DNA from: Clostridiaceae bacterium | GTDB taxonomy: Bacteria; Bacillota; Clostridia; Oscillospirales; Acutalibacteraceae | Direction of reading: 5' to 3' | NCBI GenBank assembly: GCA_016287385.1 | Contig: JAEEWM010000023.1 | Location: forward strand, 1 to 33,024 | DNA: 33,024 nucleotides | In this document: positions 10,967 to 30,916 of the stretch, piece by piece | Position numbering within the stretch: the first letter of the stretch is position 1 | Layout: the number at the start of each line of letters is the position of its first letter | Translations under genes and position numbers: made by a program | The notes under the pieces: generated by a model | What the model was told of the DNA's origin: nothing | Database searches by the model: none | Seen by the model: the letters and a program-made list of their open reading frames with translations, nothing else

Positions 10967-13426
10967 TTAATCGCTATCCTTCATTGTTGTATAGACCGCC
11001 ACGGACCCGCAAGGAAGCATATCCTTAATAACCCCGCCCACGTTGCGAATCTTTTTGCTTGATGAAATAGGCGTTGCGTCGTTATCCCTGTACTGTTTTA
11101 AGCCCTCAAACAAATAACGGTAAAACGTTTTACCCTCAAATTCTTTTTCAAAGGATAATTCAAAAGGCATATCGAAAATATTTGAATTGACTACTAATAC
11201 GGTGGTTTCCCCGTCTTTACTCTCACAGGCGGTGCAGCATAAACCGCTCTCGGAAAAATTATCACCGCGGTAGGTTTTCCCCGGCAGAATATGCGAAGCG
11301 ACCGCTTGATAAGCGTAATAACTGTTATACGGTTTTTCCTCCTGCAAAGGATTAGGCACAAGCCCCCAGCAATGAAAACCGTCCTGCCAGTTATCGGGAT
11401 TATTGCCTCTTGACCCGACCCAAAGTGTGTTTGTGAAGGTCCAATGCAAAACCGTTTTGTAACCGATATTCATAAATGCCGCCATACCCGCTATCATATG
11501 AACGGGATTCCACGGCGAAGCATTACGGGCTTCAAACCACGTATTGTTGCGGTCGGTCGCATTGTATTCGTCTATCCATACGTTTTGTGCGGCGATGCCG
11601 GTTTTCTGCCTTATATCGTCATTAACAATGGTCATCATATTTTCAAATTTAAGCGCCGTGTTTGTGTACTGTGATACGTATTTGTTGTAGTTGTGATACG
11701 ACCACTCGTCGCCGTAAGGTTTCAGCGCCTCATACATCGGAGCAAACAGTTGCCATGTGGAATTCCACATTTCTGTTCCGAGCGCCACGTTGCCGAGAAT
11801 AAACTTATACTTTTCCCGAACTCCCGCCTTTGTTAAAGAATCATGTACCGCGCCGATACACGATTTATACCTTTCAAGCAGCGCCTGCCCTTTTTCATCG
11901 CCGTAGCCGTTTATAAACCCGCTTCCGGGCTCGGAGAAAAAGGTAATATATTTTACCGCGTTAATGCCGCGGTCACAAAGCGCTTTCAGGTACTCTGTGA
12001 CGAAGCGGGCAAAAATCTCACACTGCTTTTCAAAGCTTAACGCGGCAAGCTTAGCGTCGGCAAATACCGCGTCTTGATAATTCATCGAATTGCCCCACTC
12101 AAAATTAAGCAGGATATCAATACCGCGCGCCTCAATGCCATTAAGGGATCTAAGTATCGCCTCAAAACGTTTGCCGCTTAAATTCCAGCTTTCGTTTTCT
12201 TTTACATACCAATCCGAGCTGGCAAAAAGGGTTGTTCTCACTATCCGTACGCCAGACGCTTTAAGGCGGTCAAGCTCGGTCTCGGCTTGTTCTCCCGAAT
12301 AATTCCTGCCAAACTCATCTTTAAGGTATATCCACGGATAATAAAGCGCGCCGAAGCCCAGAAAATCGGAATTTACCGGCGTTTTATTATAAAGCTTTAA
12401 TTTAGCCGCTTTATTAGGCATAAACCATTTAATTATGGGTTCGGGAAGCTGCCTTCTTTCGATAAAGTATCTGCGATATAAACCCGACAGCGAAAAAAGA
12501 ACCGTGTCACCGAAAATAGCCCGCTGCTTTCCGCCGTCGTCGGTGCCGATAAGGACAGGAGAAACCGAGAATTCATCGTTTATATGGATTTGTTTGAATC
12601 CTTTTATGATTACCGTACTGCTCTCATTGCCGGGCATTATCTGCGTTTGCAGTTCCATTGTGTTGAAAAGTCCGCAAAAGAAGCTGTTGACGCGAAATGT
12701 TTTATCGTTATTCTGTACCCTTGCGCCAAGTCCTTTATGCCTGAATTTCATTACAACGTCTATACTGTCAAAAGAATCGGAAGTAACCGAAAGGCTTGTG
12801 CTTTCAAACGCGATATATGATTCCTTTTCGCAAACGCCGATTTCGCTGATAGCTATCGTCGGCACATTTTTTAAGTCCCTGTGCCTGAAATTCATAATGC
12901 CGACGTAAACGTAACTTTCGGGAAGCGCGTCATAAAGGCATTCGAGTATATAGTCGCCGTTTACCGACACTTTAATTTCCATAAAGTCATCGGTCGGCTT
13001 ACTGCAATCAACTTCAAACGCCTTAATTTCACTTTTACTGCTGAGTTCGTCGGGTTTGCCGAGCTCGGTAAACGGACCGGTACCGATAAGCGGACCTTCG
13101 TTTAACACGTTAAACTCGCCGGACGAGGCAAAAAAGCCGACCTTGACGTTATCGTCTATCGGAGTAATAACTTTCATCCTTAAAAAAAGCGTATAGCGCT
13201 TATAGCGGTCGATATTCTGCTTTTGAAAGGCTTTATTCACCGCTACTCCCGCCGCAAGGCCCGGTGTCCACAGCGCACATCTGCCCTCGCCGTACTCCTT
13301 TGTCGGCCCGGTCATATACGGCCAGGCGCCGAAGTTCAAAAGCCGTACGCACTGTTTGCCGTTTATCTCAACGACACCGTCATCGGGGGCATCGGTGTTA
13401 AACGTGTACTTGAATAATTGATTCAT
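10967..13426 (-). CDS. Putative clan GH-A-like glycosidase, cytoplasmic paralogue
   Basis: The protein has 819 residues and no signal peptide. GGAGG lies just before the ATG at 13426. Residues 1-345 are a beta-rich region I do not recognise. From about 352 the sequence parallels the proteins at 19556 and 25036: LGFGALYYPWIY (356-367), ILLNFEWG (438-445), KYITFFSEPG (492-501), VWIDEYNA (616-623) and LHWTFTNTLW near strand 8, then a small C-terminal beta domain ending VAVYTT. A TIM barrel with acid/base Glu499 after strand 4 and nucleophile Glu620 after strand 7 is inferred from motif order and spacing, as in retaining clan GH-A enzymes. The nucleophile region resembles GH39. I cannot assign a CAZy family. 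Its position between two GH36 genes suggests intracellular oligosaccharide cleavage. Confidence 0.7.
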   Translation of the reverse strand: MNQLFKYTFNTDAPDDGVVEINGKQCVRLLNFGAWPYMTGPTKEYGEGRCALWTPGLAAGVAVNKAFQKQNIDRYKRYTLFLRMKVITPIDDNVKVGFFASSGEFNVLNEGPLIGTGPFTELGKPDELSSKSEIKAFEVDCSKPTDDFMEIKVSVNGDYILECLYDALPESYVYVGIMNFRHRDLKNVPTIAISEIGVCEKESYIAFESTSLSVTSDSFDSIDVVMKFRHKGLGARVQNNDKTFRVNSFFCGLFNTMELQTQIMPGNESSTVIIKGFKQIHINDEFSVSPVLIGTDDGGKQRAIFGDTVLFSLSGLYRRYFIERRQLPEPIIKWFMPNKAAKLKLYNKTPVNSDFLGFGALYYPWIYLKDEFGRNYSGEQAETELDRLKASGVRIVRTTLFASSDWYVKENESWNLSGKRFEAILRSLNGIEARGIDILLNFEWGNSMNYQDAVFADAKLAALSFEKQCEIFARFVTEYLKALCDRGINAVKYITFFSEPGSGFINGYGDEKGQALLERYKSCIGAVHDSLTKAGVREKYKFILGNVALGTEMWNSTWQLFAPMYEALKPYGDEWSYHNYNKYVSQYTNTALKFENMMTIVNDDIRQKTGIAAQNVWIDEYNATDRNNTWFEARNASPWNPVHMIAGMAAFMNIGYKTVLHWTFTNTLWVGSRGNNPDNWQDGFHCWGLVPNPLQEEKPYNSYYAYQAVASHILPGKTYRGDNFSESGLCCTACESKDGETTVLVVNSNIFDMPFELSFEKEFEGKTFYRYLFEGLKQYRDNDATPISSSKKIRNVGGVIKDMLPCGSVAVYTTMKDSD

Positions 13427-13452
13427 AAATTTTCCTCCGAGTTATCTGCTGC

Positions 13453-15447
13453 TTATAAGTGTATTTGTCTTAGCTCGTGAGCATTATATATCAGCAATTC
13501 GCCGATATCGAGCGGTTTTACATCACCGTTCGGCAGCCTTTTATACGTTGCCGGCGACATATACTTGTCTTTAAGCCCTATTACCGCCTTGCCGCCTTTA
13601 ATCGGGGCGAAAATATAAAGCTTGAATTCATCGTAATTTTTCAGTTCAATATCGAAAACGTCTTTACCGCTTATCTTAAACGCGGTCTTTTCAAACCAAT
13701 CGTATACGCAATAATCGACCTCTTCATCTATCAGCATATCCCTTGCCGATATTTGCGATGAAACGCCTTTTTCATCTTTATCGATGTTAAAGACGGCAAG
13801 TATACCGCTTTCTTCGTGGCTATTAAACAATTTGAACGCCTTGCCGCTTTCACGCGCATCTTCAAAAAGACAATCGGGCGACGGCCTTGCCGGAGTGGCA
13901 AGTCTGATTATTCTTCCGTCACTGAAAACCGTTGGCATAATAACATCTTTTTTGCTTCTGCCGAGTTTATCGCTCACATAGACGGGTCCGCCGCTCATGG
14001 CCTTGATAACGGAATTTTTTATACCCTGCGTATCGTCGGACCACCACATATCCCAGTCGCCGTAGTAAACGCTGCCCTGAACCGCAGAATTATACGCGCA
14101 CTGCAAAATATGCCCCGAAAACCATTTTCTGTTCTCCGGCATAAAATCGCCGCTGAAACGGCAAACGGCGCTTTTTCTGTTCCAGAAGTTTTCGGTCGCC
14201 ATACCCATACAGTTTATAAGCGCGCCGCCGAAATACTTATTATTCGCCTTTTCTATCGCATTATGAAGATTACTTGCCGCCTTGCCTATCGGCATTGCGA
14301 GCTTCGCGTACCAACGCAGGTGTGACTGATAATCAACCTTCATAAAATCAATGCCGCAACTGCTGTAAAACCCGTGCTGACGGTCATAGTATTCCTCTAT
14401 AATATCACGCTCGTAGCGTGGTATCAGCTGTTGCTTAGTAGACCAGTAAAGATAATCGGCATATTCCCCGGCAAGGGGCGAATTCGGATTTATCCCGTGC
14501 CAGTAACCCGTTGCGGGATGCCAAAGCCCGACCTTCAGACCGTAGCCGTTTTTCAATTCTGTTACAACGCCCTTCAAGCCCTTTGGAAAACGGTCGGGCG
14601 CCGCCTCAAAACTGTTAAGCTCACGCGACTGCATAGTGGGTATATTGTTGTTCGGAACGTCGCCCCACATATCGTCAAGAATAAACCAGCGTACGGGTAT
14701 GCCTTTTTCCTTAAACTCGCGCGCTTTGTTTATCAAATCAGAATGGGTGACCTCCATGTGAAAAGCGTCCCAACTGCACCAGCCGAGATAGTCAAACACT
14801 TGCGGATACTGCTTATCGGTTCTCATCAGCGGCTCTCTGCCGAGCAGGCAAAAAGTTTCTCTGTTTACGTTAAAGGGAAGCTCGTACGGGTCGCCGCCCT
14901 TACCCCAGGACAAGGCTACCGTATCGACACTGTTCGGCAAACAGTTGTTCCAGACATAGATATCAAAGCCGTCTTCAAAGCCTTTTACGGTTGAAACGAA
15001 TTCCTTGTCACATACAGTTGTAAGGAAGAGATATTCGCTTTCTGTCTGTGCGAGAATTGCCTGAGTAAATTCAGGCAGCTCACATAATTTTCCGAAAAAC
15101 GGGTGTACCCAAAATTCACTTTTGTTATAAGTCGCAAAAAAGCGTGAAACGCCTTTTATGCTCTTAATATGCAAACCTACGGCACATTCAAAATCAAAAT
15201 GATTTCTTCCCGCCGTTTCACCGAGGTTTTGAGGGTCAAATTTTGCAATATATCTTAAATACTTTATATTGGCGCGGCACTCGATGACCGCCAAAAGCGT
15301 TATGCCCAAATTATCATCTGAAAACATAAGCGTATTATCTTTTTGCGCCTTAAAATCAAGAGGATAGCGATTGCCGTCATCCAACTCGGCAAAAGCTGTA
15401 ATACCGTTTAATATGTCAAAGCTTTCTACCATACTGTCACCGTTCAT
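13453..15447 (-). CDS. GH36-type raffinose synthase/Sip1-like alpha-galactosidase
   Basis: The protein has 664 residues and no signal peptide. Motifs typical of the raffinose synthase/Sip1 branch are FDYLGWCSWDAFH (218-230), WFILDDMWGD (254-263), GLKVGLWHP (303-311), DFMKVDYQ with nucleophile Asp372, CRFSGDFMP (429-437, matching the family's RxSDDF segment and its candidate acid/base), GDWDMWW and GGPVYVSDK. Plant members transfer galactose to make raffinose or act as alkaline alpha-galactosidases. Bacterial ones are mostly uncharacterised, so hydrolysis is the safer guess. The start overlaps the end of the beta-helix gene by 11 bases and lacks a clear Shine-Dalgarno site, suggesting translational coupling. 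A second ATG at 15432 is an alternative start. Confidence 0.82.
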   Translation of the reverse strand: MNGDSMVESFDILNGITAFAELDDGNRYPLDFKAQKDNTLMFSDDNLGITLLAVIECRANIKYLRYIAKFDPQNLGETAGRNHFDFECAVGLHIKSIKGVSRFFATYNKSEFWVHPFFGKLCELPEFTQAILAQTESEYLFLTTVCDKEFVSTVKGFEDGFDIYVWNNCLPNSVDTVALSWGKGGDPYELPFNVNRETFCLLGREPLMRTDKQYPQVFDYLGWCSWDAFHMEVTHSDLINKAREFKEKGIPVRWFILDDMWGDVPNNNIPTMQSRELNSFEAAPDRFPKGLKGVVTELKNGYGLKVGLWHPATGYWHGINPNSPLAGEYADYLYWSTKQQLIPRYERDIIEEYYDRQHGFYSSCGIDFMKVDYQSHLRWYAKLAMPIGKAASNLHNAIEKANNKYFGGALINCMGMATENFWNRKSAVCRFSGDFMPENRKWFSGHILQCAYNSAVQGSVYYGDWDMWWSDDTQGIKNSVIKAMSGGPVYVSDKLGRSKKDVIMPTVFSDGRIIRLATPARPSPDCLFEDARESGKAFKLFNSHEESGILAVFNIDKDEKGVSSQISARDMLIDEEVDYCVYDWFEKTAFKISGKDVFDIELKNYDEFKLYIFAPIKGGKAVIGLKDKYMSPATYKRLPNGDVKPLDIGELLIYNAHELRQIHL

Positions 15448-17362
15448 CCATGAGCGTATAATTCACGCGGTACCCTGTGATTACCGGAAGCTCGCGCTTA
15501 TAGACCCTCTTTATTTTTCCGCCGTGTCCGGATTCCAAAATCAAATTGTAGTCAAGTCTTTCCGACACGCCGAAAATCTTGCCGGCAAGTAAATAAACAT
15601 CCGAATCTCTATTTTCAAAGAGAGCGTTTTCAGCTGTAATATCGCCTATACCGCAGGAGAATACGACCGCGAGCGTTTTACCCCCGTTTACGGTTTTTAT
15701 TGCCGTACCGGGTCCTTCAACCTTAAAGCCGTAAACAGTAAGATCCGAATTATCATTAAGAACTTCAATATCCGCGCGCTCCGGGTTGAGATTAAAAGCA
15801 GTAACCGTCTGCCCGTGAAATTCATAGGGTATCATTCGGCAGTATTCCGGCTCAAAGCCCTTTCTCGCAATAATGCAGTCGTTTGAATAAGTACCTACCG
15901 TACAAGCACAGTTATCCAGACAAACTCTGCTGCCCGGCACGGTGTTATAGTACATCGCGGCGGTCTGAGTATGCAAATCGCGCAAAACGAGGTCTCTAAG
16001 GGCAGCGTGACGAATGAATCGGAAATGACCGTAAAACTGCTCAAAAGTGTAAAGATGCTCCATAACAAGCGGCGTATTATGATCCTCGTTTATTACAAAC
16101 AGCGCGTCCGCCTTACCGCTTATAAGGTTTTCACCCGCAAAAAAGTCACAAAACATAAAATCAATTCTGCTTACCGTAGCGGGTACGCTTATACTGCCGT
16201 TTACAAGATAGTGTCCACCTGAGAAAAGCACGGCTTTTTTCCCGCTGTCAAGAGCTTTTTGTATCGCCGAAGTCGAGTCGTGCTTACCGTCGCCAACCGC
16301 GCCGTAATCCTCAACTACGGCAAAGTCTTCCGCGTCAAGGTTGAATTTTTCGGTCGGAACATCGGCGCGCCTAAACTCTTCAATCTCGCCTATAAGTATA
16401 TTGTTCGCATATACGCCGCGGGATTCGTAAACAGAGTACACCTCGTTTTTCGCCGGGACAGTGCTTAAACTGTTATCAAGTATCGCATAGCTGCCGTTTT
16501 CGCCGATAAACTCAATTTTTTTTGCGTCTTCTTCCCTAAAACCGCCGAAAACAGCCGAGCCGCGACCTGTGCGCACGGTGGCGCCCGATATATCCGAAAA
16601 GCGAAAACCTTCAAGCACGCAAACCGAAGTTTTATAGGCGTAAACGCCGGTATTAAAGCCGGTTACAGATATATTTCTGAATACGCCCTCGCTCCCCACC
16701 GCGAGCTGAATACCGGTATCGGCGCCGCCGCCTTTAAGTAAAACATTCTCAATCCTGCCTGAGTTGTTGGCGATAAAGCGAAGACCCACCGCACCGGAAT
16801 TGCCGTTTCCGCAATCCACGGTAATATCTTCAAAAGTATTAAGCTGAGAAACGTTTGAGGTTTCATTTTCAAGGCAAGCGTCCGCATTCACGAAACTGAT
16901 TACCGGTTTTCGGGAGCCATTTTCAAAGCCCGCGGAATTATCTTTGAGTTTTATTACCGTTTTCTCTCTGCTTTCACCCAGAAAATGTATACCGCGTGTC
17001 AATTCAAAACCGGGTTTTGAATCAAAAATGTTTTTAAGATTATTATGCGTATAAGTTACGGTATCACTTACCAAGTAGGTTCCCTCGGGAAAATAAATAA
17101 TTCGCGCGTCGGGTACAAATTCAGGGAAAATAACGCGCACCTTTCTTTTCTCGATTCTTGACTCGAATCCGATATACACATCATTTTCCCCGAGAGAATA
17201 CAGCCGCTTTTCGGTATCCCTGACACCGTTTATTTCACGGACCGTCACATCGTCGATTACGCGGCGTAAAATTGCCGTACAATCGACTTCACCCGTATTA
17301 TCCGCATAATACGGGGCTTTAGTTACGTCAATTATATTTTTGAGATTTTCAGGATACTTCAT
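15437..17362 (-). CDS. Right-handed beta-helix protein, pectate-lyase-superfamily-like
   Basis: The product is 641 residues from the ATG at 17362, which has GGAG nine bases upstream; another ATG at 17368 is only three bases from it. Two regions look like starts of pectin-lyase-type helices: residues about 20-100 (DNTGEVDC to IIYFPEGTYLVSD) and 350-390 (DYGAVGDGKHDSTSAIQKAL, then LFSGGHYLVNG). Between and after them are many short beta coils with Asn/Gly turns. Such helices occur in GH28, lyases and sugar epimerases, and I cannot see a decisive catalytic set. No signal peptide is present, which is unusual for a pectinase-like protein and argues for an intracellular role on imported oligosaccharides. 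The gene ends inside the start of the Sip1-like gene. Confidence 0.7.
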   Translation of the reverse strand: MKYPENLKNIIDVTKAPYYADNTGEVDCTAILRRVIDDVTVREINGVRDTEKRLYSLGENDVYIGFESRIEKRKVRVIFPEFVPDARIIYFPEGTYLVSDTVTYTHNNLKNIFDSKPGFELTRGIHFLGESREKTVIKLKDNSAGFENGSRKPVISFVNADACLENETSNVSQLNTFEDITVDCGNGNSGAVGLRFIANNSGRIENVLLKGGGADTGIQLAVGSEGVFRNISVTGFNTGVYAYKTSVCVLEGFRFSDISGATVRTGRGSAVFGGFREEDAKKIEFIGENGSYAILDNSLSTVPAKNEVYSVYESRGVYANNILIGEIEEFRRADVPTEKFNLDAEDFAVVEDYGAVGDGKHDSTSAIQKALDSGKKAVLFSGGHYLVNGSISVPATVSRIDFMFCDFFAGENLISGKADALFVINEDHNTPLVMEHLYTFEQFYGHFRFIRHAALRDLVLRDLHTQTAAMYYNTVPGSRVCLDNCACTVGTYSNDCIIARKGFEPEYCRMIPYEFHGQTVTAFNLNPERADIEVLNDNSDLTVYGFKVEGPGTAIKTVNGGKTLAVVFSCGIGDITAENALFENRDSDVYLLAGKIFGVSERLDYNLILESGHGGKIKRVYKRELPVITGYRVNYTLMDER

Positions 17363-17389
17363 GCACATGCTCTCCGACCCGCGAAACTT

Positions 17390-19474
17390 TTATATGTCAA
17401 CTATACAACAAATCTCGCCCGCTTTCAACTTTATAAAGTAGGGTACGCTTTGGCACTTTTCGGGAGTTGTGTAAAGTTTGCCCTTTCCGGCGCCCAAACG
17501 CAATTCCTGCTCGTTAAATGTCCTGTTGACAAAAAATTCCGCAACGGTACCGTCGTCGGCAATAAAACGGCGATTCAAAATAACACGGTCGCTTATATTG
17601 TGCCCCTGTTTAGTTACAAAAGCCACGCTTTCAGCACAGTTTGCCGGTTCTGTTTTAAGAAGCTTACCGAAGAACAGATATTTTTTAGCGAAGCTCTTTC
17701 GCCAGCGGTTTGCGCTTTTAATAAACGACGTTAAGTGCTCACTTTCGGGAAAATCGTCACAAAACGGTGCGTTCCAGCCCCAGTTTATTCTTCCGCCTTC
17801 TCCCAAAGTAATCGAAAGGATGTCTCCCGCCAGGAACGAATATGCGGTGCGATAGAGCAAATTATCGGGCGCGGCGTCGAAATCGGTGGTCTTTTCAAGT
17901 TCGTTTTGATTGCCCATAAAATTGCAAACGTACTGATGATATACATAACTGTACGCGGGAACGGGTCTTCCCTGCCTGAGCGTTATAAACCAACGCAAAT
18001 CATTGCATATAAGATATTTCATAAGCGGCTCGCACGCGGCAAGCTCGCAGCCGATAAGCATATTTTTGCCGATATTATCGATACCGCTTCTGATTTTTTC
18101 AAGCAAACTTATCATACTGTCGGTTATCCATCTGCCGGGCGCGGCGGGATGTCCGTGCTCCTTACTCCAGCAAAAATGAGCCATGCCGCCGATATTCTGG
18201 TCAAACGCCTGAAAGTAATCAACGTCCGCATTTGCGACTTTAAGCGTCTCTTTTACGGTGACGTCAACTGTTTTTTCACAATAAGGGCAGACCTCATATC
18301 CGCTTCTTACGAAAGAAAGCTCGGTAACCTTTATTTCTTCGCCCTCACTGTCACGGCAGGTCGCCTCACTCCAGTTTTCGCCGATATAACGGTCGGTTAT
18401 ATCGTAGGAGCTGTCCTTTACGCTTTTCGTGGTTATACCTATTCCGCTGGCGTAAAGCCCTATAAGATTATTGTTTTTATGTAATTCTTTTACCGTGCGT
18501 TCAAAATCGCCGAGGTCGCCGTGAGGCGGCCACACATAGGGGTTAGACCAGGGAGCGCTGCCCTCCCAGTGCATCATAAGCGCCATTACTCTGCTATCGA
18601 AGCTTTTCGAGTATTTATCGGCTACCGGAAGAATATTTGAATATGGATAGTAGCAGTTCTCCGCCATATCCTTATCACAATCCTTATCCGTTCTGCCGCG
18701 CACGGGATAAATCATAAAAACAGGCGAATCGTAAAGCCATTGCGGCAAATCTTTTCTGTCTGCGAGCTTTTCCGGTAAAGACATACCCGAAGTATAAAGC
18801 CACTCACGGTATATTTCCGCCGCGTCCTGCCAATCACCGCGAAAGTCTTTTAACACAACAGGATACGGCATTAAATAGCTTTTACAACCGCCGACGAAGT
18901 GGGTACATTCAAATCTGACAGTATCACTGTTTTCAAAATAGTATTCAAAATCCTTGAAATTGCAATCCTTATCGTGCGTACCGAAATACAGACCGTTCTT
19001 ATCTGAATAAATTGCCATAAACTGCATTGAAACGCCGGCGGGTGCAAGCCCGGTATATCCCCCGCCGAACCTTTCTATGGCGTTCGAATAATACTCGTTA
19101 TCATTGGCGCGCTCAACAAGCGTACCTTCAAGCGCCGGCCAGAAAATAGTGTCGTTTCCGCCGTCGCCTTTCAGTTTGCAGGGAATTCTCAGTATGGGAA
19201 ACTTCACCGACTCGATAACGCAGTCGGTGTTATTATCGACGGATAACTTAAACGAAAGCCCGCCTTCTTCACTGCTTTTGAAAATTACTATCCGCCCGTC
19301 AAAAACGTCAGGGTTACGGAATACAAACTTACCGTTTGAAATTTCTTTAAGAGAAAACTGTTCTGATGTGAAGACCCGCCTTGTTCCGTTCGCATCCAAA
19401 ACGGTCAGGTTGAACACTTCCCCGCCGTCTGTTATGAATCTGTCGGAACAAACATACTCTTTTAGATAACTCAT
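17390..19474 (-). CDS. DUF6259-like putative glycosidase
   Basis: The product is 694 residues without a signal peptide. GAGGAA about nine bases upstream supports the ATG. The N-terminal half is beta-rich, with FWPALEGTLVE (111-121), APAGVSMQFMAIY (144-156) and GLYFGTHD (161-168). A barrel-like region then holds MALMMHWEGSAPWSNPY (297-313), WPPHGDLGDF, LIGLYASGIG, a CPYC pair (396-399), VDYFQAFDQNIGG (418-430) and GCELAACEPLM (475-485). This resembles DUF6259 proteins, which I place near barrel glycosidases of the GH101/GH36 type; that placement is from memory of family patterns. Acidic residues at 419, 425, 477 and 482 are catalytic candidates. It opens the cytoplasmic enzyme block, just after a terminator-like hairpin. 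Confidence 0.6.
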   Translation of the reverse strand: MSYLKEYVCSDRFITDGGEVFNLTVLDANGTRRVFTSEQFSLKEISNGKFVFRNPDVFDGRIVIFKSSEEGGLSFKLSVDNNTDCVIESVKFPILRIPCKLKGDGGNDTIFWPALEGTLVERANDNEYYSNAIERFGGGYTGLAPAGVSMQFMAIYSDKNGLYFGTHDKDCNFKDFEYYFENSDTVRFECTHFVGGCKSYLMPYPVVLKDFRGDWQDAAEIYREWLYTSGMSLPEKLADRKDLPQWLYDSPVFMIYPVRGRTDKDCDKDMAENCYYPYSNILPVADKYSKSFDSRVMALMMHWEGSAPWSNPYVWPPHGDLGDFERTVKELHKNNNLIGLYASGIGITTKSVKDSSYDITDRYIGENWSEATCRDSEGEEIKVTELSFVRSGYEVCPYCEKTVDVTVKETLKVANADVDYFQAFDQNIGGMAHFCWSKEHGHPAAPGRWITDSMISLLEKIRSGIDNIGKNMLIGCELAACEPLMKYLICNDLRWFITLRQGRPVPAYSYVYHQYVCNFMGNQNELEKTTDFDAAPDNLLYRTAYSFLAGDILSITLGEGGRINWGWNAPFCDDFPESEHLTSFIKSANRWRKSFAKKYLFFGKLLKTEPANCAESVAFVTKQGHNISDRVILNRRFIADDGTVAEFFVNRTFNEQELRLGAGKGKLYTTPEKCQSVPYFIKLKAGEICCIVDI

Positions 19475-19506
19475 AATAGAAAATTCCTCTGAAAATAACT
19501 GTTTTT

Positions 19507-19544
19507 ATAAAATCGGGACAGATGGGAACAAACCCACCTGTCCC
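19507..19544 (-). terminator. Terminator or attenuator hairpin between surface and cytoplasmic blocks
   Basis: On the minus strand GGGACAGGTGGG pairs with CCCATCTGTCCC (one mismatch in 12) around a 6-base loop, at 19544-19515, then GATTTTAT follows. It lies 11 bases after the stop of the membrane-anchored glycosidase gene and 40 bases before the next start. The tail is only moderately T-rich, so partial read-through is plausible. Confidence 0.6.
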
Positions 19545-19555
19545 TTTAATCCGTC

Positions 19556-21331
19556 TTATTTCTTTGATGTGGTATAAACCGCTACCGCGCCGGCGGGTAT
19601 TCTGTCGGCAAAGCCGCCGGTGACGTTTATAAGCGCACGGTCAACGCCGATAGGTTTAGCCGAGGTATCGCTTTCAAACGTTTCGGGGTCGTATAAGTGC
19701 CTGTACAAAACAGACTTTGAAAGCTTGCTTTCAAAATTCATTTTGAACTCGACGTCGTTAAGATTGCTGTTTACCACAAAAACCGTAATACTGCCGTCTT
19801 TATCGTATACGCAGGATGCCGCGAGCCCATCCGCACCACTTATATCGCAGTTATAAACCGCTTTGGCGTTATTGCAGTACCGTGAAATCATTGAAAAGGC
19901 GTAATAAGCGTTGTACGGCACCTGACTCTCCATAAGATTAGGCATAAGTCCGTCAAGCATAAGTCCGCTGTTAAACTCTCCGCCGGTTTGGGTGGAATTC
20001 GGCCAAAGGGTATTTATAAACGTCCAGATACCGGCTGTTTTGAAGCCGTTGTTCAGGAAAGCTAAAAGCGTGTTTCCGATTTGGGTAGCGGTATATGGCT
20101 CATCCTTGAGCGAATAAATAGCGCCGTATTGGTTGGTTAGTGACTTAAAATTGCCTTCCGAACCGTTGTGCGTGATATTAAACTCATCTATCCAGGTATC
20201 GTTTGACTCTATACCCATATATTCTTTAACGTCCGCGGCAAATGTTTCGGGGATTATCGCAAAATCCTCATAAGTCGCGCCCTTAGGATTGGAAAGCCGG
20301 TTGTAAAAATGATAGTCATATTCATCAATATAATCCTTAACCGGATCATACAAGGGCTTCAGCTGCTGCCAGGTGTAGAGATTTATATAATAGTACGTAC
20401 TTTGGTTATTACCTACAAACTTATAATCTTTGCGTATTCCCGCGGCGGTAAAATCATCGTGAACGGTTTTTATAATCTTTGTGTATGCCGGTACGATTTT
20501 TGCCAGAAATACAGTCTCAAACTCCTCGGTACCGTACTGGCCGCCGAGTTGAGTTCTGTTTGCCGGCTCCGAAAAGAAGGTTATGTATTTAATGCAATTT
20601 ATACCGTCTTCTTTGAGTTTTTGTGTGAAAGAGGTGCAGAAATTACCGTACATAACGATTCTGTCATCCATTGTACCCGTTTTACTGAGAATGGAATCGT
20701 TAAAAATCGTCATATTGTCGTTGCTGTCGGGCTGGATAGCTCCGCCCCACTCAAAATTGAGCAGAACGTCTATTCCGCGTTTATCAATTTCCTTAAAGAA
20801 CTTTAAGAGTCCGTCATAGTGCTCTCCGCTGTAACTCCATACCCCGGTATTCTTGTTATACCACTCGGAGCGGGCGTAAATCATCGTTCTTATCCAGGTA
20901 ACTCCGCTTTCGGTAAGACGGTTAAGCTCGATTTGCCGTTGCTCCTCGGTGTAATTTCTGCCCGCGTCGTCGTTCCAGTATATCCACGGATAGTATATCG
21001 CGCCGAAGCCCATAAATTTATTGTTTACCGAGGTCTTGTTTTCAATGGTTAAGATTTGCGGGGTATCAAAATCTTCAAAGTCTTCTTCATCGATAAAATC
21101 GATAGTAGAATCATCCGGCTCGATATCAATGTCTTCTATTATCTCGTCGGGATTGTCGATTTCCTCTTCGGTAAGTATAATCAAGCCCTTTTTCTTGGCC
21201 TTTTTAGGCGAATCGTTGCCGTAATACTCAATTAAATACCATACCACTCCGCCTGTGGCGATAAGCAACGCCAGAACAGAGGAAAGAATTATAATAAGCC
21301 ATTTCTTTTTCTTGTTCTTTTCTTCTGACAT
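19556..21331 (-). CDS. Putative clan GH-A-like glycosidase, membrane-anchored paralogue
   Basis: The protein is 591 residues. Residues 7-10 are lysines, followed by one hydrophobic segment (11-32), and no cleavage site is evident. This fits an N-terminal anchor with the enzyme outside. A very acidic linker (about 54-90) leads to the enzyme: MGFGAIYYPWIYWND (107-121), VLLNFEWG (189-196), KYITFFSEPA (248-257), TWIDEFNITHNG (379-390) and GIWTFINTLW (434-443), with a C-terminal beta domain ending AVAVYTT. Glu255 and Glu383 are the candidate acid/base and nucleophile. The residue before Glu255 is Ser, where clan GH-A enzymes usually have Asn. It starts 11 bases after the upstream GLUG gene, with its GGGGGG binding site in that gap, so the two are probably coupled. 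The family is unassigned. Confidence 0.72.
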   Translation of the reverse strand: MSEEKNKKKKWLIIILSSVLALLIATGGVVWYLIEYYGNDSPKKAKKKGLIILTEEEIDNPDEIIEDIDIEPDDSTIDFIDEEDFEDFDTPQILTIENKTSVNNKFMGFGAIYYPWIYWNDDAGRNYTEEQRQIELNRLTESGVTWIRTMIYARSEWYNKNTGVWSYSGEHYDGLLKFFKEIDKRGIDVLLNFEWGGAIQPDSNDNMTIFNDSILSKTGTMDDRIVMYGNFCTSFTQKLKEDGINCIKYITFFSEPANRTQLGGQYGTEEFETVFLAKIVPAYTKIIKTVHDDFTAAGIRKDYKFVGNNQSTYYYINLYTWQQLKPLYDPVKDYIDEYDYHFYNRLSNPKGATYEDFAIIPETFAADVKEYMGIESNDTWIDEFNITHNGSEGNFKSLTNQYGAIYSLKDEPYTATQIGNTLLAFLNNGFKTAGIWTFINTLWPNSTQTGGEFNSGLMLDGLMPNLMESQVPYNAYYAFSMISRYCNNAKAVYNCDISGADGLAASCVYDKDGSITVFVVNSNLNDVEFKMNFESKLSKSVLYRHLYDPETFESDTSAKPIGVDRALINVTGGFADRIPAGAVAVYTTSKK

Positions 21332-21342
21332 TACAATCCCCC

Positions 21343-24300
21343 CTATTTAATCAAATCGTATATGCTCTTGCCGCTCGGCACGGTGATTACTTTTTCTTTT
21401 CCGGTGGAATTATCAACGACCGATACCTTATCGTTCTCATTTTTCGGGTAGTAGTTTTTGTTCTTTTCCCAACCGGTTTTGTTAGTCAGCGTTATTTCGT
21501 CAAAATCAACCGTGCCTTTCACGCTTTCGAGCACGAGATAAAGCGTTGTTCCCGATTTCATCGTATTGCGGAAGTAAATACCGTACCGCACCGCTTTACC
21601 CGTTCCGCTTCCCGCGATAAGGAATTTTTGGGTCGGCTCGTCAATATCGCCGAGCGGAGCGCCGTACGGTGCATCAGACAGATACACTTTATAAGCGGAG
21701 CCGTTTGCGCCTCTGACGCTTATACCGAAGGTGTAAAACTTGTTTTTTACAAGGTTTACAGGCACCGAAACCTTTGAGCCGCCGGATACGCGCAAAAACT
21801 TCCTGCCGAACATTGCGTCATACGCGCCCGCGGTCTTTACCGAAACACCGGCGGGCAGATTTGCCCAAACGCCGGTCATCGCGTTTTCAAAGCTCGGGTT
21901 TTCTATGAAATTATAAAGGTGTTCGCCGTAATTCTTTTTAAGCGATTCATCAAGCAAATCGGTAGCCGCGACAGCCGCCATCGGCACATATCCCGCGGGA
22001 ACCGCCGACTGCACAACCTTAAAGTTATCAAGAGCTACACAACGGGTTGAGTATTCCTCTTTATTCTTACCGATAAACTGCGGCGAATAGATGCCGAAGA
22101 AGAGCGAATTTGCCGAGAATGAATATTCGCCGCAAAACTCAAGTATTTCTTCGCCGGAAATCTCGATTTTATACGTGGTGTAACCGGTTTTCTTATCGAG
22201 CTTCAATTTGACCGCCTTAATGGCAGTATCATAGGTGTTGCCGTCGGAATCCTGGAAAGCCAGCGTGCCCGAGGCGGCGTTCGGTCTGAACAGACCTATC
22301 TGAACGACCGCGTCCGGAACGGTTTTTATAACCTTTGCGTCAACCGTAAGGGTATAGAACAGTTCGGGGTCAATATCGGTTTTCGGGATATTTATGAACG
22401 TTGCACCGCCCATAAGACTAAAGCCGACGCCGTACTTACTTTCGTTTGCATATTCCGCCTGCGGTATATGAATCTTACTGTTGTTCCACGCGCCGTAGTT
22501 GAAAAGACGCGCGCCGATATAATAATAATCGGGGTCGTTCGTGCTTTTATCCGGATCGGTATTCTTGAAAAATCCGTCATCCGTATAACGCGCGGTATCG
22601 GCATCGTATTTTTCCACCGTACCGGGATGATCCTCAAAGGTGTATTCTTTAAGCGTCTTGTTAACTTTCTTTATGTATTTCGCGCCAAGCGTCGGATACG
22701 GTGCGGAATCGGTCTGCTCAAACACGGGGTTATCCGGGTCGGAGTTTATAAGCGCCAAAACCGTACCGTCGGCAAACTGCGCCGCGGTTTTATATGTGCC
22801 GAATTCCTGACCGTCGATTTCAACTTGTTTATCGCCGATATAATAAACGTTTTTGCAGGCAAGCGTTCCTGTATGATAATGGTTTATGATAGGACCGCAC
22901 ATACCGGCAGCCCTTGCCTCGGGAGCGGTGCCGGTAAAGAAACAGTTTTCAAGCGTTATCGAGCCGTTTGCCAAAAAGCCCAAAAGTCCGCCCGAGGTAG
23001 TCGTACTTCTGTTTACCGCGGTAGCGTAACCCGAGCCCTCGCCGATTATGTTTGCGTCACAGTAAGAATTCAAAACACTTACGGTAAAGCCGCCGTTTAC
23101 GGAGCCTACAAGTCCGCCTCCTCTGCCGAAGCCGTTAATAGTACCCGATACTGAACACTGGTCTATGCTGAGACCGCCCGCAACGTTTGAAACAAGTCCG
23201 CTGGCGCAAAGATAATTCCAACGGTTGCTGTCGTCCGGGAATACGCTCGTAACGGTGCCGTCAAACGAGCAGTGTCTGATAGCGGCGCCCGCCGCGATAC
23301 CGGCAATACCCGCAACCGCTACCTTTGGCTCGGTGGCGGTAACGCTGCCTTTTACGTTCAGGTTTTCCACAACACCGGCGAGCGCGCCGAAAAAGCCTAT
23401 ACCGTTATTTTTATTCGATTCGATATTGATCCCGCTTACCGTGTAATTGTTACCGTTAAAATTGCCTCTGAAATACGCGGGGTTGTTGCCTATCGGCGTA
23501 AAGCTCAGTCCGTTCATATTGATATCGCCCGCAAGAGCTATGTATTTGCCGGAATAATCGACGCCGGCGTTTACCTGCTCTGAAAGGTAAGCGAGATCCG
23601 ACCCGTTTTTGATAAGATACGGGTCTTTGCTTGTTCCCGCGCCTTCAAGCGAATCGGAGACCGTGCCGTCCCAACCGCCGTAGGCAAAGGTACCGGTATC
23701 GGTTACTTTACCGCATACGGTACATTCTCTGTGCGTTGTGCCGTCAGTTTCCGGCGTGGCGTAAGTGTCTACTATAAAACTACCCGGGGTATGCGCGCCT
23801 TTATCGACCTTCCTGCCGCAAATGTTGCATTTGTGCCAGTGATTGTTATCGTCAAACAGCCACTCTTCGGTCACATCGGCGTGGGAGCAATCGTCAATAG
23901 CGAAAACGGGATACGCCTCGCCCTGAACAAATACTATATCGTCATCATCGTTAAGTAAATCGGTAACCGTGCCGTTTGCAAACTCGGCAGCGGTCTTAAA
24001 GGTCCCGAATTCATTTGACCCGCTTTCCGCCTTGGCGTTACCTATGTAAAATGTATTAACGCAGGTAAAAGTTCCGCCCGCGTAGTGATTTATTATGGGT
24101 CCGCCCATACCGCTTGACCTTGCAGGCGCTGCCGTACCGGCGAAGAAACAGTTTGTAGAAACGATCGTTCCTGTATTGAGAAAGCCGAAAAGACCGCCGG
24201 CTGTAAGATAGCCCGAAAGCGAATCATCAAGCGCGCCTTTTCCGGTAACGTTCGCGTCGCAATAAGAATTTGTCACCGCGAGACTGAACGGACCGTTAAC

Positions 24301-25002
24301 AGAACCGACAAGGCCGCCGCTTCTGCCGAAACCGTCTATCACGCCGGAAACGCAACAGTGATTAACTGTCGTATTACCCTCCACCCTGCACACAAGGCCG
24401 GAGGCGGAAGAATAGTTCTGTTCATTAGTGGACCAACCGCCCGCACCGTTTGATATAAGCGTGTTTAAGGCGCGAACCGTACCGTCAAACACACAGTTTG
24501 TGATACTGACTGTGCCCGCGGCTACGCCTATAAGCCCTGCAACCGCAACTACCGAAACGGTCGCTCTGACGCTGCCCTTTACGGTAATATTTTTAACTGT
24601 GGAATTATGTACGGCGCCGAAAAAACCGATGCCTCTATCTGATGAAGAACTGATATTAAGTCCTGAAACCGTGTGCTTATCGCCGTCAAAATTACCTCTG
24701 AAATAAGCACCCGTATTGCCTATCGGAGAAAAACTCAAATCATTTAAGTCAATATCGGCGGTAAGCTTCAAATATTTACCGGTATAATCATTACCGCCGT
24801 TTACGGAACCCGCAAAATAGGCGAGGTCCGCGCCGGTTTTTATAAGGTACGGTTCTTCCGCCGTGCCGCTTCCTTCAAGGGATGAGGAAGCGGAACCGTC
24901 CCACACGTCGCCGGAAACGACTGTGGGCAGCCCCAAAAGCAACGATGTTGATAAAACCGCAAGAGCAACAAGTATGCTTATTATTCGCTTTTTATTAGTC
25001 AT
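21343..25002 (-). CDS. Secreted GLUG-repeat protein with C-terminal beta modules
   Basis: I start at the ATG at 25002 (1219 residues), because GAGG at 25011-25014 stands eight bases upstream; a GTG at 25011 and an ATG at 25008 are too close to it. A signal peptide covers about 1-32 (cut near VSG/DVW). Unit A (32-371) and unit B (about 444-785) each open with WDG and PYLI and contain GLUG-type segments such as GGLVGSVNG. A Cys/His module (372-441; HWHKCNICG, ECTVCG) separates them. The rest (786-1219) looks like two beta-sandwich domains, possibly carbohydrate-binding (YTFEDHPGTVEKYD; ENPSFENAMTGVW, a common opening of such modules). No sortase motif or membrane anchor is seen. It is flanked by the secreted and the anchored glycosidase. 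Confidence 0.82.
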   Translation of the reverse strand: MTNKKRIISILVALAVLSTSLLLGLPTVVSGDVWDGSASSSLEGSGTAEEPYLIKTGADLAYFAGSVNGGNDYTGKYLKLTADIDLNDLSFSPIGNTGAYFRGNFDGDKHTVSGLNISSSSDRGIGFFGAVHNSTVKNITVKGSVRATVSVVAVAGLIGVAAGTVSITNCVFDGTVRALNTLISNGAGGWSTNEQNYSSASGLVCRVEGNTTVNHCCVSGVIDGFGRSGGLVGSVNGPFSLAVTNSYCDANVTGKGALDDSLSGYLTAGGLFGFLNTGTIVSTNCFFAGTAAPARSSGMGGPIINHYAGGTFTCVNTFYIGNAKAESGSNEFGTFKTAAEFANGTVTDLLNDDDDIVFVQGEAYPVFAIDDCSHADVTEEWLFDDNNHWHKCNICGRKVDKGAHTPGSFIVDTYATPETDGTTHRECTVCGKVTDTGTFAYGGWDGTVSDSLEGAGTSKDPYLIKNGSDLAYLSEQVNAGVDYSGKYIALAGDINMNGLSFTPIGNNPAYFRGNFNGNNYTVSGINIESNKNNGIGFFGALAGVVENLNVKGSVTATEPKVAVAGIAGIAAGAAIRHCSFDGTVTSVFPDDSNRWNYLCASGLVSNVAGGLSIDQCSVSGTINGFGRGGGLVGSVNGGFTVSVLNSYCDANIIGEGSGYATAVNRSTTTSGGLLGFLANGSITLENCFFTGTAPEARAAGMCGPIINHYHTGTLACKNVYYIGDKQVEIDGQEFGTYKTAAQFADGTVLALINSDPDNPVFEQTDSAPYPTLGAKYIKKVNKTLKEYTFEDHPGTVEKYDADTARYTDDGFFKNTDPDKSTNDPDYYYIGARLFNYGAWNNSKIHIPQAEYANESKYGVGFSLMGGATFINIPKTDIDPELFYTLTVDAKVIKTVPDAVVQIGLFRPNAASGTLAFQDSDGNTYDTAIKAVKLKLDKKTGYTTYKIEISGEEILEFCGEYSFSANSLFFGIYSPQFIGKNKEEYSTRCVALDNFKVVQSAVPAGYVPMAAVAATDLLDESLKKNYGEHLYNFIENPSFENAMTGVWANLPAGVSVKTAGAYDAMFGRKFLRVSGGSKVSVPVNLVKNKFYTFGISVRGANGSAYKVYLSDAPYGAPLGDIDEPTQKFLIAGSGTGKAVRYGIYFRNTMKSGTTLYLVLESVKGTVDFDEITLTNKTGWEKNKNYYPKNENDKVSVVDNSTGKEKVITVPSGKSIYDLIK

Positions 25003-25035
25003 ATTCATCACCTCGAAGAATCAGGAAATCTTGTG

Positions 25036-27423
25036 TCAGGAATTGACGGAGGTATAAATCGCGACCGCGCCCGCGGGCAGTGTATCGGTGAGCGAAGAAG
25101 TCACACCCGTAAACGCTTTATCAAAGCCGATAATGTCGGCGCGTGCGGAAGTTGTATTGACCGAGGGATTGTAAACGTGGCGATAAAGCGTGGCGCCGCC
25201 AAGCGAGCTGTTAAAGTCTACCTTTACCGCTTTATTCTGATAATTGAGGTTTACAACCATTAAATACTTTTCGGTGCCGCTCGCGTTTGTACCGTAAACC
25301 GTAATACAGCCGTCCGCCCGGGTGCCGGCGTAAATCTTAGCGCACCTGTTCATATACTTTGTTATGAGCGAGAAAGCGTAATACCTGTCGTAAGGAACGG
25401 TATCGCCCGAAAGGGCGTTCGGCATAAGGCCGAACATATTGTCGCTGCTCAAATTGCTGAAAGTCCATACATAAGCGCCTTTATAGCCCTTATTCATAAG
25501 AAGCGCGAGGTATTCGGCAAGCTGGGTCGCCTCAAACGGGCTTGCAAGCGCCTTGTTGTTTTCCGCCGCGCTGACGCCGGATTTTACCGACACCTCATCC
25601 ATCATAATACTGTTGACGTTTACCGAGGTAGTGGCAAGACCGTCGCTTGTTATATTATCAATAGCGGTCTTATTGGCGGAATAATTACTCAGCTTTGCGT
25701 TTGTAAACTTGCCGTAGTAGTGGTATGAGTAGGCATTGGAATTGCTCGAAACAGTCGATTTGCCGACCATTGTTCTGAACCACTTTTTACCCGAAAGGAA
25801 GCTGTAACCGCCCCAGGAGGTTATATTCCACCAGTCGTAGCCGGAGCTCGGGTCGTAAATCATACTGATATTGCCCGAAACTATCGAAACGTCGCTTCCC
25901 CTGCCGAGTGCGGCAAGCTGTGTTTTAACCGAATTCACGCACTGACCGTAGGTGGTAATGACGCTGTCAAAGTTAAGCTGTGCCGACTGGGATTTTGCCT
26001 CGGCGTTTGTGCTTCCCTTCCAACCGTTACCGGGTTCCGAGAAGAAAGTAATGCTCTTTACGTTGCTGCAGCCCGCGTCAAGGAAGAAATCGGTATAAGC
26101 CGCGCAAAGCTGTCCGTAAGCGGTTATCTGCTGACTGAGTGTAAGCGAGGTCTGGAAAGTAGTACCTGTCGGAAATACCGCGGTAAGGTTACCGTTTGAG
26201 AGCGACTGTATCGAATTACCCCAGCCGAAGTTTATCATTGCGTCAATGCCCCTGTCTTTAAGGGCGTTCAGCATTTCTACCCAGATATCGGTATACCAGT
26301 CGCCGCCGGCGGGAATTTTGGCGCATTTGTTAGTAAAATCGTAATGTCCCGACTGCAAAACCGAAAATATAATTCTTACTTTCTTAATACCCGACTGCTG
26401 CATTCTGTCAAGTTCCGTATACGCTCTCGCCTTTGCGGCGGCAACCGTTGCGCCGCCCTCGCGTATAGTATCGGTCCAGGGATACATTACCGCGCCGAAA
26501 CCGCCGAATGAGGAATTAACAGCCGTGCCGTTTGAAACGGTAAGAGCCGTGGCGCCCGCGGCGCTGTCCGCCGTGGAGCAAAGCCCCAGACGCTGAGCCG
26601 TGTTATCGGCAAAATCCGTCCTCTCGGATGAATAAAGGATATCGTCATCCGCAAATTTTATGTAAGAACGAACCGTATAATCGGTCGTTGAAATATCTGA
26701 CTTTGAAGTTATCTGCGCAACAAAATCAACATAAGATTTTGTCGTATCGAAAAGATTTGTGCTCAAAGGATCATCGGAAGAATAGCACACAGTTTTAACA
26801 ATACCGTTAGAACCGGCGCCGGCATAGGTAATCTCGTTTGTGCCGAGCCGTGCGCTCGATGCGCGAAGAACGCCTATTTCGCTTACCCGCGTTCTCGTTC
26901 CGTCTTTTCTTAAAGTAATAACGCCTGTAGTTGTATTTCGCGAGCCGACCTTAAAATAAAGGCGGGATAAAAAGCGGATACCGTCAAACGTGCCGGTGTC
27001 AAAGGACTCGTCATTGCTTCTTACGGCACAGGCGACAACGTCAAAGTTCGCCGCGTCGTTTGTTTCGCTTACAAATTCAGCGTACAAATAAACGTTTGCC
27101 GCGGGCATTGTAAAGCGCATTTTGTAGCCGTTCAAATCGGCGGTGGTATTATCGTTTGCACGGTTTACAAGCGGCTTTGAAACGTATCCGTCCGCCTCGT
27201 ACATATAAACCGGCGAACCCACCTTGGTAACGTAACCGGAAGCGGGTGTTACGGTAACGTAAACGGTATCGCCGTCTTCCGCCGTGGCGGAACTGACGGT
27301 TACCGTTCCGTTTGTCAAAGGCAAAACGGTTATTGTATATGATGTTGCAGCCGAAGCGCTTATCGGCAGCATAACGATAAACATTACAACTATTAAGAGG
27401 ATTGAAGTAATACGTTTTTTCAT
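25036..27423 (-). CDS. Putative clan GH-A-like glycosidase, secreted paralogue
   Basis: The protein is 795 residues. A clear signal peptide (1-25, ending ISASA/A) follows an AGGGTG ribosome binding site. Residues 27-118 resemble an InlB-type bacterial repeat (AEDGDTVYVTVTP, FTMPAANVYLYAEF). Residues 127-280 form a beta domain of a type common in clostridial secreted proteins. The enzyme part has FGGFGAVMYPW (306-316), AMINFGWGNS (395-404), SITFFSEPGNGW (457-468), MMDEVS (607-612) and YVWTFSN, then the shared C-terminal domain ending LPAGAVAIYTS. Candidate acid/base and nucleophile are Glu463 and Glu610. The nucleophile motif (DEVS) departs from the DEYN/DEFN of its paralogues, and the two Glu lie further apart (147 residues, against 128 and 121), so its substrate may differ. 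Confidence 0.72.
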   Translation of the reverse strand: MKKRITSILLIVVMFIVMLPISASAATSYTITVLPLTNGTVTVSSATAEDGDTVYVTVTPASGYVTKVGSPVYMYEADGYVSKPLVNRANDNTTADLNGYKMRFTMPAANVYLYAEFVSETNDAANFDVVACAVRSNDESFDTGTFDGIRFLSRLYFKVGSRNTTTGVITLRKDGTRTRVSEIGVLRASSARLGTNEITYAGAGSNGIVKTVCYSSDDPLSTNLFDTTKSYVDFVAQITSKSDISTTDYTVRSYIKFADDDILYSSERTDFADNTAQRLGLCSTADSAAGATALTVSNGTAVNSSFGGFGAVMYPWTDTIREGGATVAAAKARAYTELDRMQQSGIKKVRIIFSVLQSGHYDFTNKCAKIPAGGDWYTDIWVEMLNALKDRGIDAMINFGWGNSIQSLSNGNLTAVFPTGTTFQTSLTLSQQITAYGQLCAAYTDFFLDAGCSNVKSITFFSEPGNGWKGSTNAEAKSQSAQLNFDSVITTYGQCVNSVKTQLAALGRGSDVSIVSGNISMIYDPSSGYDWWNITSWGGYSFLSGKKWFRTMVGKSTVSSNSNAYSYHYYGKFTNAKLSNYSANKTAIDNITSDGLATTSVNVNSIMMDEVSVKSGVSAAENNKALASPFEATQLAEYLALLMNKGYKGAYVWTFSNLSSDNMFGLMPNALSGDTVPYDRYYAFSLITKYMNRCAKIYAGTRADGCITVYGTNASGTEKYLMVVNLNYQNKAVKVDFNSSLGGATLYRHVYNPSVNTTSARADIIGFDKAFTGVTSSLTDTLPAGAVAIYTSVNS

Positions 27424-30809: not shown

Positions 30810-30887
30810 AAAATAATTCCTCCAATTACAATAGTATTTCAAGGGAATTCGTGAAGGGTATAACATCCCCCACACTTTTACGTATAG

Positions 30888-30916
30888 ATTATACAATTTA
30901 CATATTAAATAAGACC
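30888..30916 (-). promoter_or_regulatory. Promoter of the surface-protein operon
   Basis: On the minus strand TATAAT (30893-30888) has a 17-base spacer to GGTCTT (30916-30911), a poor -35. The layout is base-for-base the same as at 2688-2716. The expected transcript begins near 30881, leaving a leader of about 72 bases. Confidence 0.65.

Follow-up and report, generated by a model that had tools for sequence, protein, structure and literature searches.

A GH-A-type protein family with predicted secreted, membrane-anchored and cytoplasmic members in a glycan-utilisation-like locus of a Clostridia bacterium

The Gram-positive polysaccharide-utilisation locus (gpPUL) has been defined in PMC5320581, and PMC10318527 describes an example that combines a cell-anchored enzyme, an ATP-binding cassette (ABC) transporter and cytoplasmic enzymes. 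Among glycoside hydrolase (GH) families, the GH173 beta-galactosidases are presented in PMC8810776 as a GH-A barrel with an appended beta-sandwich whose closest families are GH30 and GH5; they are often fused to GH36, or encoded together with GH36 in polysaccharide-utilisation loci (PULs), and their orthologues occur in several phyla, Firmicutes included, as well as in metagenome-assembled genomes (MAGs) from the rumen. Here we analyse a 33,024-nucleotide stretch of DNA ("the window") that encodes three related proteins, A, B and C, previously described in an initial annotation as one unassigned glycosidase-like family distributed over three cell compartments. The window is the entire contig JAEEWM010000023.1 of the Clostridiaceae bacterium assembly GCA_016287385.1, with contig ends at both sides, so that the locus is cut off at 33024.

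Like these gpPULs, the window encodes a surface enzyme, an ABC importer with a solute-binding protein (SBP) and cytoplasmic enzymes: transport is represented by the SBP and a contig-cut permease, and enzymes are represented by GH36, recognised by model, and by a GH-A-type family, recognised by fold, whose action on polysaccharide is predicted. The window differs from the gpPULs so described in that its secreted, tethered and cytoplasmic enzymes all come from one family, in that each surface enzyme is paired with a large secreted protein encoded by a gene of its own, and in that no regulator was seen among the 16 window proteins scanned. We consider it likely that the window is a Gram-positive locus for glycan capture, surface cutting, ABC import and cytoplasmic digestion, at the base of which stands a GH-A-type family left unassigned by Pfam, NCBIfam and solved structures. 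What is new here is that a large secreted protein or its cut end is encoded directly upstream of those surface members of this family whose upstream gene is readable, in 12 of 12 cases, vs. 0 of 18 for cytoplasmic members, a difference that comprises only three independent contrasts.

Three paralogues with a predicted GH-A-type core

The three open reading frames (ORFs) named in the initial annotation are present, all on the minus strand:

10967..13426, minus strand: protein A, 819 residues, cytoplasmic; beta-sandwich region (residues 1-340) and GH-A-type core (343-819); predicted acid/base E499 and nucleophile E620
12407..13426, minus strand: accessory N-terminal region of A, predicted to consist of beta domains; weak fold match to CBM22
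19556..21331, minus strand: protein B, 591 residues; N-terminal membrane anchor, acidic linker and GH-A-type core; predicted acid/base E255 and nucleophile E383
25036..27423, minus strand: protein C, 795 residues; signal-peptide-like start, InlB B-repeat-like domain and GH-A-type core; predicted acid/base E463 and nucleophile E610

A, B and C alike carry, in the order previously reported, the motifs GFGA[LIV].YPW, NF.WG, ITFFSEP, DE, WTF.N and [VI]YT[TS], and the spacing of the two glutamates, given earlier as 121-147 residues, is 121 in A (E499/E620), 128 in B (E255/E383) and 147 in C (E463/E610). The core common to the three comprises approximately 500 residues, with pairwise identities of 27-36%: BLASTP aligns A with B at 36% identity over 498 columns (E 3e-101), B with C at 28% over 615 columns (E 7e-61) and A with C at 27% over 539 columns (E 6e-43). 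E-values this low (6e-43 to 3e-101) rule out sharing of the motifs by chance, and a search of the 1.86-Mb genome with B as query at E 0.01 matches nothing beyond A, B and C. A trivially recent duplication is ruled out both by the 36% identity of A and B and by the orthologues of A and B, which hold their own places in two other loci (L004 and L005; loci and genomes are cited by our L and G numbers), where the order large protein-B-DUF6259-PF12708-PF05691-A is retained.

Localisation was called from mean Kyte-Doolittle hydropathy in 17-residue segments. Protein A has no hydrophobic segment (best mean 0.96), B has a lysine-rich start followed by a membrane segment (mean 2.48), and C has a signal-peptide-like start (mean 2.94), in agreement with the differing N-termini reported before (none, anchor, signal peptide). 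Because the N-terminus of B is positive, its enzyme domain should face outside. The proposal of three compartments therefore stands as three different localisation signals in one locus, but the signals correspond to two membrane sides, with two forms, B and C, outside. The N-terminal region of A (residues 1-340) gave a structure model with a predicted local distance difference test score (pLDDT) of 71.9 and a predicted template-modelling score (pTM) of 0.69; its best Foldseek match is weak and CBM22-like (E 8.7e-4; template-modelling score (TM) 0.31 by query), and the region resembles the large protein encoded at 21343-25011 (BLAST E 3e-4).

An AlphaFold2 model of the core of B alone, computed with 8 sequences in the alignment, has pLDDT 78.6 and pTM 0.84 and shows eight strand-helix units followed by a C-terminal beta-sandwich; the loops at 304-326 and 356-374 have pLDDT below 50. 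The clan GH-A barrel proposed in the initial annotation is borne out in this model, which is of B only: the predicted fold is a (beta/alpha)8 barrel and not something other than a TIM barrel. The 50 Foldseek matches listed from the Protein Data Bank (PDB) include GH30 xylanases, GH51 arabinofuranosidases, a beta-glucuronidase, which we take to be GH79, and a glucosidase; the best is 4fmv (E 2.6e-18), and among the 50 listed the TM is 0.56-0.63 by query length and the identity 11-14%. In the model, core residue E171 follows strand 4 (163-168), and E299 lies within strand 7 (295-304).

Profile alignments place the same two residues on the corresponding positions of described families. Alignment A1 (18 of the 28 proteins then in hand; insert-bearing, partial and remote members were left out) was compared by hhalign with GH51, GH30 and GH39-like proteins of the same order, yielding probabilities of 95, 93 and 93. 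In these alignments FSEP lies over GNE in GH51, QNE in GH30 and WNEP in the GH39-like set, and the Glu of WIDEFN lies over DEWN, TEG (beside gaps) and DEWNY, respectively; when B is compared with a GH51 by BLASTP, DE.N is aligned in the same way (E 5e-10). With the aligned GH51, GH30 and GH39-like glutamates taken, as we assume, to be catalytic, the two residues singled out before (Glu255 and Glu383 in B) occupy catalytic positions. Reference pairs gave 97 (GH51/GH39-like), 32 (GH51/GH39), 10 (GH51/GH30) and 0.1 (GH30/GH39), and A1 with a canonical GH39 set of three sequences gave only 0.5; in the GH30 set, one of the six rows (L094) has no BLAST match to the others and may be in the wrong frame. 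Core residues R64, W111, E171, H257, D298, E299 and W352, among others, are invariant in all 18 rows of A1. Judged by model and alignment, A, B and C belong to a clan GH-A-type family and are predicted to be retaining enzymes in which one Glu, at the end of barrel strand 4, would serve as acid/base and another, on strand 7, as nucleophile.

Searches of sequence libraries agree with the earlier statement that the family has no assignment, in that a confident match to a characterised family is absent in Pfam, NCBIfam and PDB sequences. For the core of A, B and C, no family exceeds the cut-off in NCBIfam or in Pfam, where the sub-threshold matches include DUF5440 (C, E 0.014) and PHP (B, E 0.2). 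Models for GH30 (PF02055), GH51 (PF22848, PF06964) and GH39 (PF01229) are absent among the Pfam matches of A, B and C up to E 1, and A, B and C have no match to Glyco_hydro_cc (PF11790); a remote relative from another part of the phylum, outside our tree (L043, genome G666), matches Glyco_hydro_cc at E 1.4e-8, and sub-threshold GH30C matches occur among relatives. Searches with phmmer of A, B and C each against PDB sequences returned nothing credible (best E 0.42). The A1 profile matched 13 PDB chains, namely GH30, glucosylceramidase, arabinofuranosidases (E 0.14), GH5, beta-galactosidase and two unrelated MarR regulators (E 0.001-0.002); the best matches are GH30 xylanases (6iuj, E 9.3e-6), mostly through the C-terminal beta-sandwich. 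In PHROGs, two unnamed models were matched, each by one member of 18 (best E 6.6e-5). A tblastn search with B found no match in plasmids, one with A found none in phages, and viral contigs scanned with A gave a single 32-residue match, to the N-terminus of A (L034).

The family thus resembles GH30 in its nearest solved fold, its best PDB profile matches, its barrel with C-terminal beta-sandwich and the alignment of both glutamates, but differs in the low identity of the listed fold matches, in the absence of a Glyco_hydro_30 match in A, B and C, and in the relatives' GH30C matches, which stay below cut-off. Likewise, it resembles GH51 and GH39-like enzymes in that both catalytic glutamates superpose in the profile alignments (hhalign 93-95, vs. 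0.5 for canonical GH39) and in that GH51 arabinofuranosidases are among the top folds, but A, B and C have no corresponding Pfam match.

Cytoplasmic members of one clade, in L009, L010, L011, L021, L030 and L031 (the same proteins as those of L056, L057, L059, L051, L049 and L055), give split BLAST matches because an extra domain separates the strand-6 His from the strand-7 DE motif. In L031 the extra domain is CBM_4_9-like (residues 269-374, E 8e-4, below cut-off).

Surface members and their large secreted partners

In a 33-row tree, a single branch (100/100) sets apart the 8 rows made up of A, B, C and their orthologues, whose branching order is unsure. Localisation must have changed at least 6 times on the tree, a number so low that none of 200 shuffles gave it (shuffled mean 12.4), and a single clade of all surface forms is ruled out (approximately unbiased test, p 1e-50; the grouping was tested once the tree was seen). 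Because A, B and C group in one clade and the surface forms do not make up a single clade, A, B and C arose by duplication and relocation within their lineage. Genome G197 represents a separate origin of mixed cytoplasmic and anchored copies, and contig 15 of G198 (L056), where both kinds also occur, encodes in succession a cytoplasmic copy, one secreted protein and a copy of lipoprotein type. C has a long end branch (1.63) and odd composition, and its position in the tree is unsure.

In the window, each surface enzyme has a large neighbour:

21343..25011, minus strand: large secreted GLUG-type protein directly upstream of B, its ORF separated from that of B by 11 bases; weak CBM_4_9 resemblance, below cut-off, in the C-terminal region
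27516..30896, minus strand: large secreted protein, likewise GLUG-type, encoded directly upstream of C; its C-terminus matches dockerin type I below threshold

The tree contains 15 surface-type rows, 11 of them with a readable same-strand upstream gene, and in all 11 that gene encodes a large secreted protein or the contig-cut end of one. Addition of a lipoprotein fragment from outside the tree (L056) brings the count to 12 of 12 surface members; for cytoplasmic tree rows, the count is 0 of 18. Left out of the count were L053 and L054, at contig ends, and L050 and L085, which are fusions in which the enzyme forms the C-terminal part of a secreted protein (3588 and 1181 residues, respectively). 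Loci L084-L089 were read only after the pattern had been noted; they show the partner with 3 of 3 anchored members and 0 of 2 cytoplasmic members, together with one fusion. Elsewhere in the tree, the sister rows L084 and L089 show the order permease-SBP-large protein-lipoprotein enzyme, plus a DUF5696 gene, and their transporter proteins are homologous to those of the window (permease 52% identity, SBP 26-27%).

The partners of surface members have an N-terminal export signal and comprise 551 to 2290 residues where complete (in L004, L005 and L047 the contig edge leaves only the end of the protein). CBM_4_9 and InlB-repeat domains are both above the Pfam cut-off in 5 of the 9 partners scanned (L046, L052, L058, L084 and L089). 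The last 230 residues of the 21343-25011 protein resemble, at E 1e-9 to 3e-6, the partners in L046, L052, L054 and L058 as well as part of the fused L050 protein; the L047 and L056 partners are linked to it only via L046. Some partners end with a membrane segment, which in L047, L056, L058 and L089 is preceded by an xPxTG-like string.

The three GLUG-repeat secreted proteins of the window (3-2663, truncated by the contig end, 21343-25011 and 27516-30896) are about 37-57% identical over their longest matches. The fused L050 protein (L050:2750-13513) also has a calcineurin-like phosphoesterase domain (residues 1357-1562, E 5.6e-9). The dockerin type I match in 27516-30896 covers residues 1054-1103 and scores 21.3 bits vs. 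a cut-off of 22.9, and the same genome has three cohesin matches above cut-off on another contig (G000:C2) and one sortase; given this sub-threshold dockerin, the three cohesins and the sortase, a small cellulosome-like system in this genome is possible.

The locus and the occurrence of the family

Same-strand ORFs with gaps of at most 152 bases run from the permease to the GH36 gene (33023 to 8765, minus strand) and would form one operon. Beyond the five proteins listed above, the annotated genes of the window are as follows:

2800..3648, minus strand: aldose 1-epimerase (domain-model match)
3645..6878, minus strand: DUF5107 and TPR protein, 1077 residues (domain-model match)
8765..10930, minus strand: GH36 (melibiase-type) enzyme, 721 residues (Pfam Melibiase, E 2.8e-99)
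13453..15447, minus strand: raffinose synthase-like protein, 664 residues (Pfam PF05691)
15437..17368, minus strand: pectate-lyase/rhamnogalacturonase-type protein, 643 residues (PF12708, E 6.6e-21)
17390..19474, minus strand: DUF6259 protein, 694 residues (Pfam)
31049..32620, minus strand: ABC transporter solute-binding lipoprotein (SBP_bac_8, E 3.8e-15; SBP_bac_1, E 1e-14)
32655..33023, minus strand: ABC transporter permease, truncated by the contig end (BPD_transp_1, E 5.9e-13)

According to the reading of the window as a locus for glycan capture, cutting, import and digestion, secreted C and membrane-tethered B would cut a glycan outside the cell, the large secreted proteins encoded directly upstream of them would hold or present it, and the ABC importer (31049-33023), with an SBP and permease putatively specific for sugars, would take up the fragments. 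Inside the cell, A, two GH36-type enzymes (the PF05691 protein being presumably GH36-type), the DUF6259 protein and the PF12708 protein would complete digestion. In this scheme A, B and C would be hydrolases acting on beta linkages, and the roles given to the other genes are likewise putative. The two GH36-type enzymes and the pectin-type PF12708 protein point to a galactose-bearing plant polysaccharide as a candidate substrate, and stepwise cutting of one glycan by A, B and C, as first suggested in the initial annotation, would fit the layout.

A 69.5% identical copy of the DUF5107-TPR protein is encoded in L047, where a B-type enzyme, a GH43 and a GH36 relative also occur, an association that suggests a common pathway step. 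A literature search on DUF5107 returned work on other matters, and a search pairing DUF6259 with glycoside hydrolase found no paper. An AraC-type regulator adjoins the L056 locus.

In genome sets that are samples of larger groups, up to phylum, and in counts that include the window's own genome, the A1 profile at E 1e-20 matches 9 of 398 genomes in the bacterial family to which the window belongs, 5 of 394 in its order, where three of the hits are partial and fall in a remote group, and 2 of 398 in its phylum; at E 1e-10 it matches 2 of 196 genomes of the same class. Among the genomes listed, the five of the same genus lack a match at E 1e-20. Multiple copies occur: G197 and G183 each have matches at six distinct places, and at one place in G183 (L055) three copies stand in tandem. 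A search with B of 84,980 species genomes, which detects close relatives only, found three loci, L004 and L005 among them; all three lie in assemblies of Clostridia sampled from the reticulum of water buffalo or the caecum of water deer.

Some cytoplasmic relatives lie in other settings. In L057, the enzyme gene is directly upstream of the SipL and SpoIVA genes, and the neighbours in L088 are similar by their N-termini. In L044 (4412-9884), a cytoplasmic member directly follows two nucleotidyl-transferase genes, which we take to be of the ADP-glucose pyrophosphorylase type, and a starch/glycogen synthase gene, neighbours that hint at a tie to stored glucan. In L048 (10220-13886), a cytoplasmic member is followed by a GH39-like gene and a GH35 gene.

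Alternative readings and significance

Several observations weigh against the reading of the window as a glycan-utilisation locus of paired surface enzymes and partners. With respect to the pairing, the rows share much of their ancestry, and the link between surface enzyme and partner comprises only three phylogenetically independent contrasts, all in the same direction (sign test p 0.25); in L054 the large partner is downstream, the gene upstream of the enzyme lying beyond the contig end; and the score of 0 for cytoplasmic L061 is unsure, because its upstream gene is only a 200-residue fragment at a contig end. With respect to the partners, CBM_4_9 and InlB-repeat matches are absent or below cut-off in 4 of the 9 scanned (L056, L087 and both window partners), and no C-terminal anchor was seen in the 21343-25011 protein. 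With respect to the locus, the scan of 16 window proteins that revealed no transcriptional regulator covered a contig cut at both ends, and several cytoplasmic relatives adjoin genes of other pathways, for example citrate synthase (L051) and sipL and spoIVA (L057). With respect to the clan, an Asn directly before the acid/base Glu is usual in GH-A, with known exceptions, and at this position the 18 A1 rows have Ser (8 rows), Thr (6), Asn (3) or Val (1). Because Ser, not Asn, precedes the predicted acid/base in A, B and C, the family departs in sequence from the clan norm.

The strongest of the alternatives, which we nevertheless regard as unlikely, is that the family is already numbered in CAZy, as GH173 or another recent clan GH-A family outside Pfam, NCBIfam and the PDB, and that the locus is an ordinary PUL with a known enzyme family. 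Compared by description alone, GH173 is the described family most resembling A, B and C among those we met: as presented in PMC8810776, it agrees in fold, in affinity to GH30, in GH36 neighbours and in occurrence in Firmicutes and the rumen. The distribution differs, GH173 being described there from Bacteroidetes PULs and several phyla, and the A/B/C family being found in few genomes (e.g., 2 of 196 of the class at E 1e-10) and appearing narrow within Bacillota, the phylum to which the profile search was confined. None of the 13 PDB chains matched by the A1 profile is named GH173. GH36 matches in 197 genomes of the order, followed as a route to GH173 fusions, gave listed frames of 485-840 residues and one of 1042 (G320), none clearly long enough for two full enzymes.

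Appreciably less probable is that the surface enzymes act on the cell's own surface glycans, such as those of the neighbouring large secreted proteins or the cell wall, and serve envelope maintenance, not the use of food polysaccharides. The pairing and fusion of surface enzymes with large secreted proteins would suit such a role, as would the cytoplasmic relative beside the sporulation genes sipL and spoIVA; however, the window also encodes GH36-type enzymes, a PF12708 protein and an ABC importer, 5 of the 9 scanned partners have CBM_4_9 domains, and housekeeping is ill-suited to a family for which five listed same-genus genomes have no match at E 1e-20. That one or more of A, B and C are binding pseudo-enzymes, with only one or two of them cutting, is very improbable, since the divergence of C (end branch 1.63, odd composition) has to be set against intact glutamates and invariant Arg, His and Trp residues in all three proteins.

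Going beyond the reading of the window itself, we put forward, tentatively and at somewhat less than even confidence, a broader proposal: that this is a GH-A glycoside hydrolase family not described before, present mostly in one uncultured Clostridia lineage; that its members moved between cytoplasm, membrane and exterior several times; and that its surface members stand in a fixed pair, sometimes as one polypeptide, with a large modular glycan-holding secreted protein, as a Gram-positive counterpart of the binding-protein and surface-enzyme pairs of Bacteroidetes. Should the family prove to be GH173, the present results would extend GH173 to a new lineage and a new architecture. If the proposal is correct, it would add a new enzyme family to a clan that is used for reading the diets of gut microbes from genomes, it would offer a clean system for how one fold adapts to the outside, the surface and the inside of the same cell, and the pairing with large proteins would provide a handle on how polysaccharide is held at the surface of Gram-positive gut bacteria.

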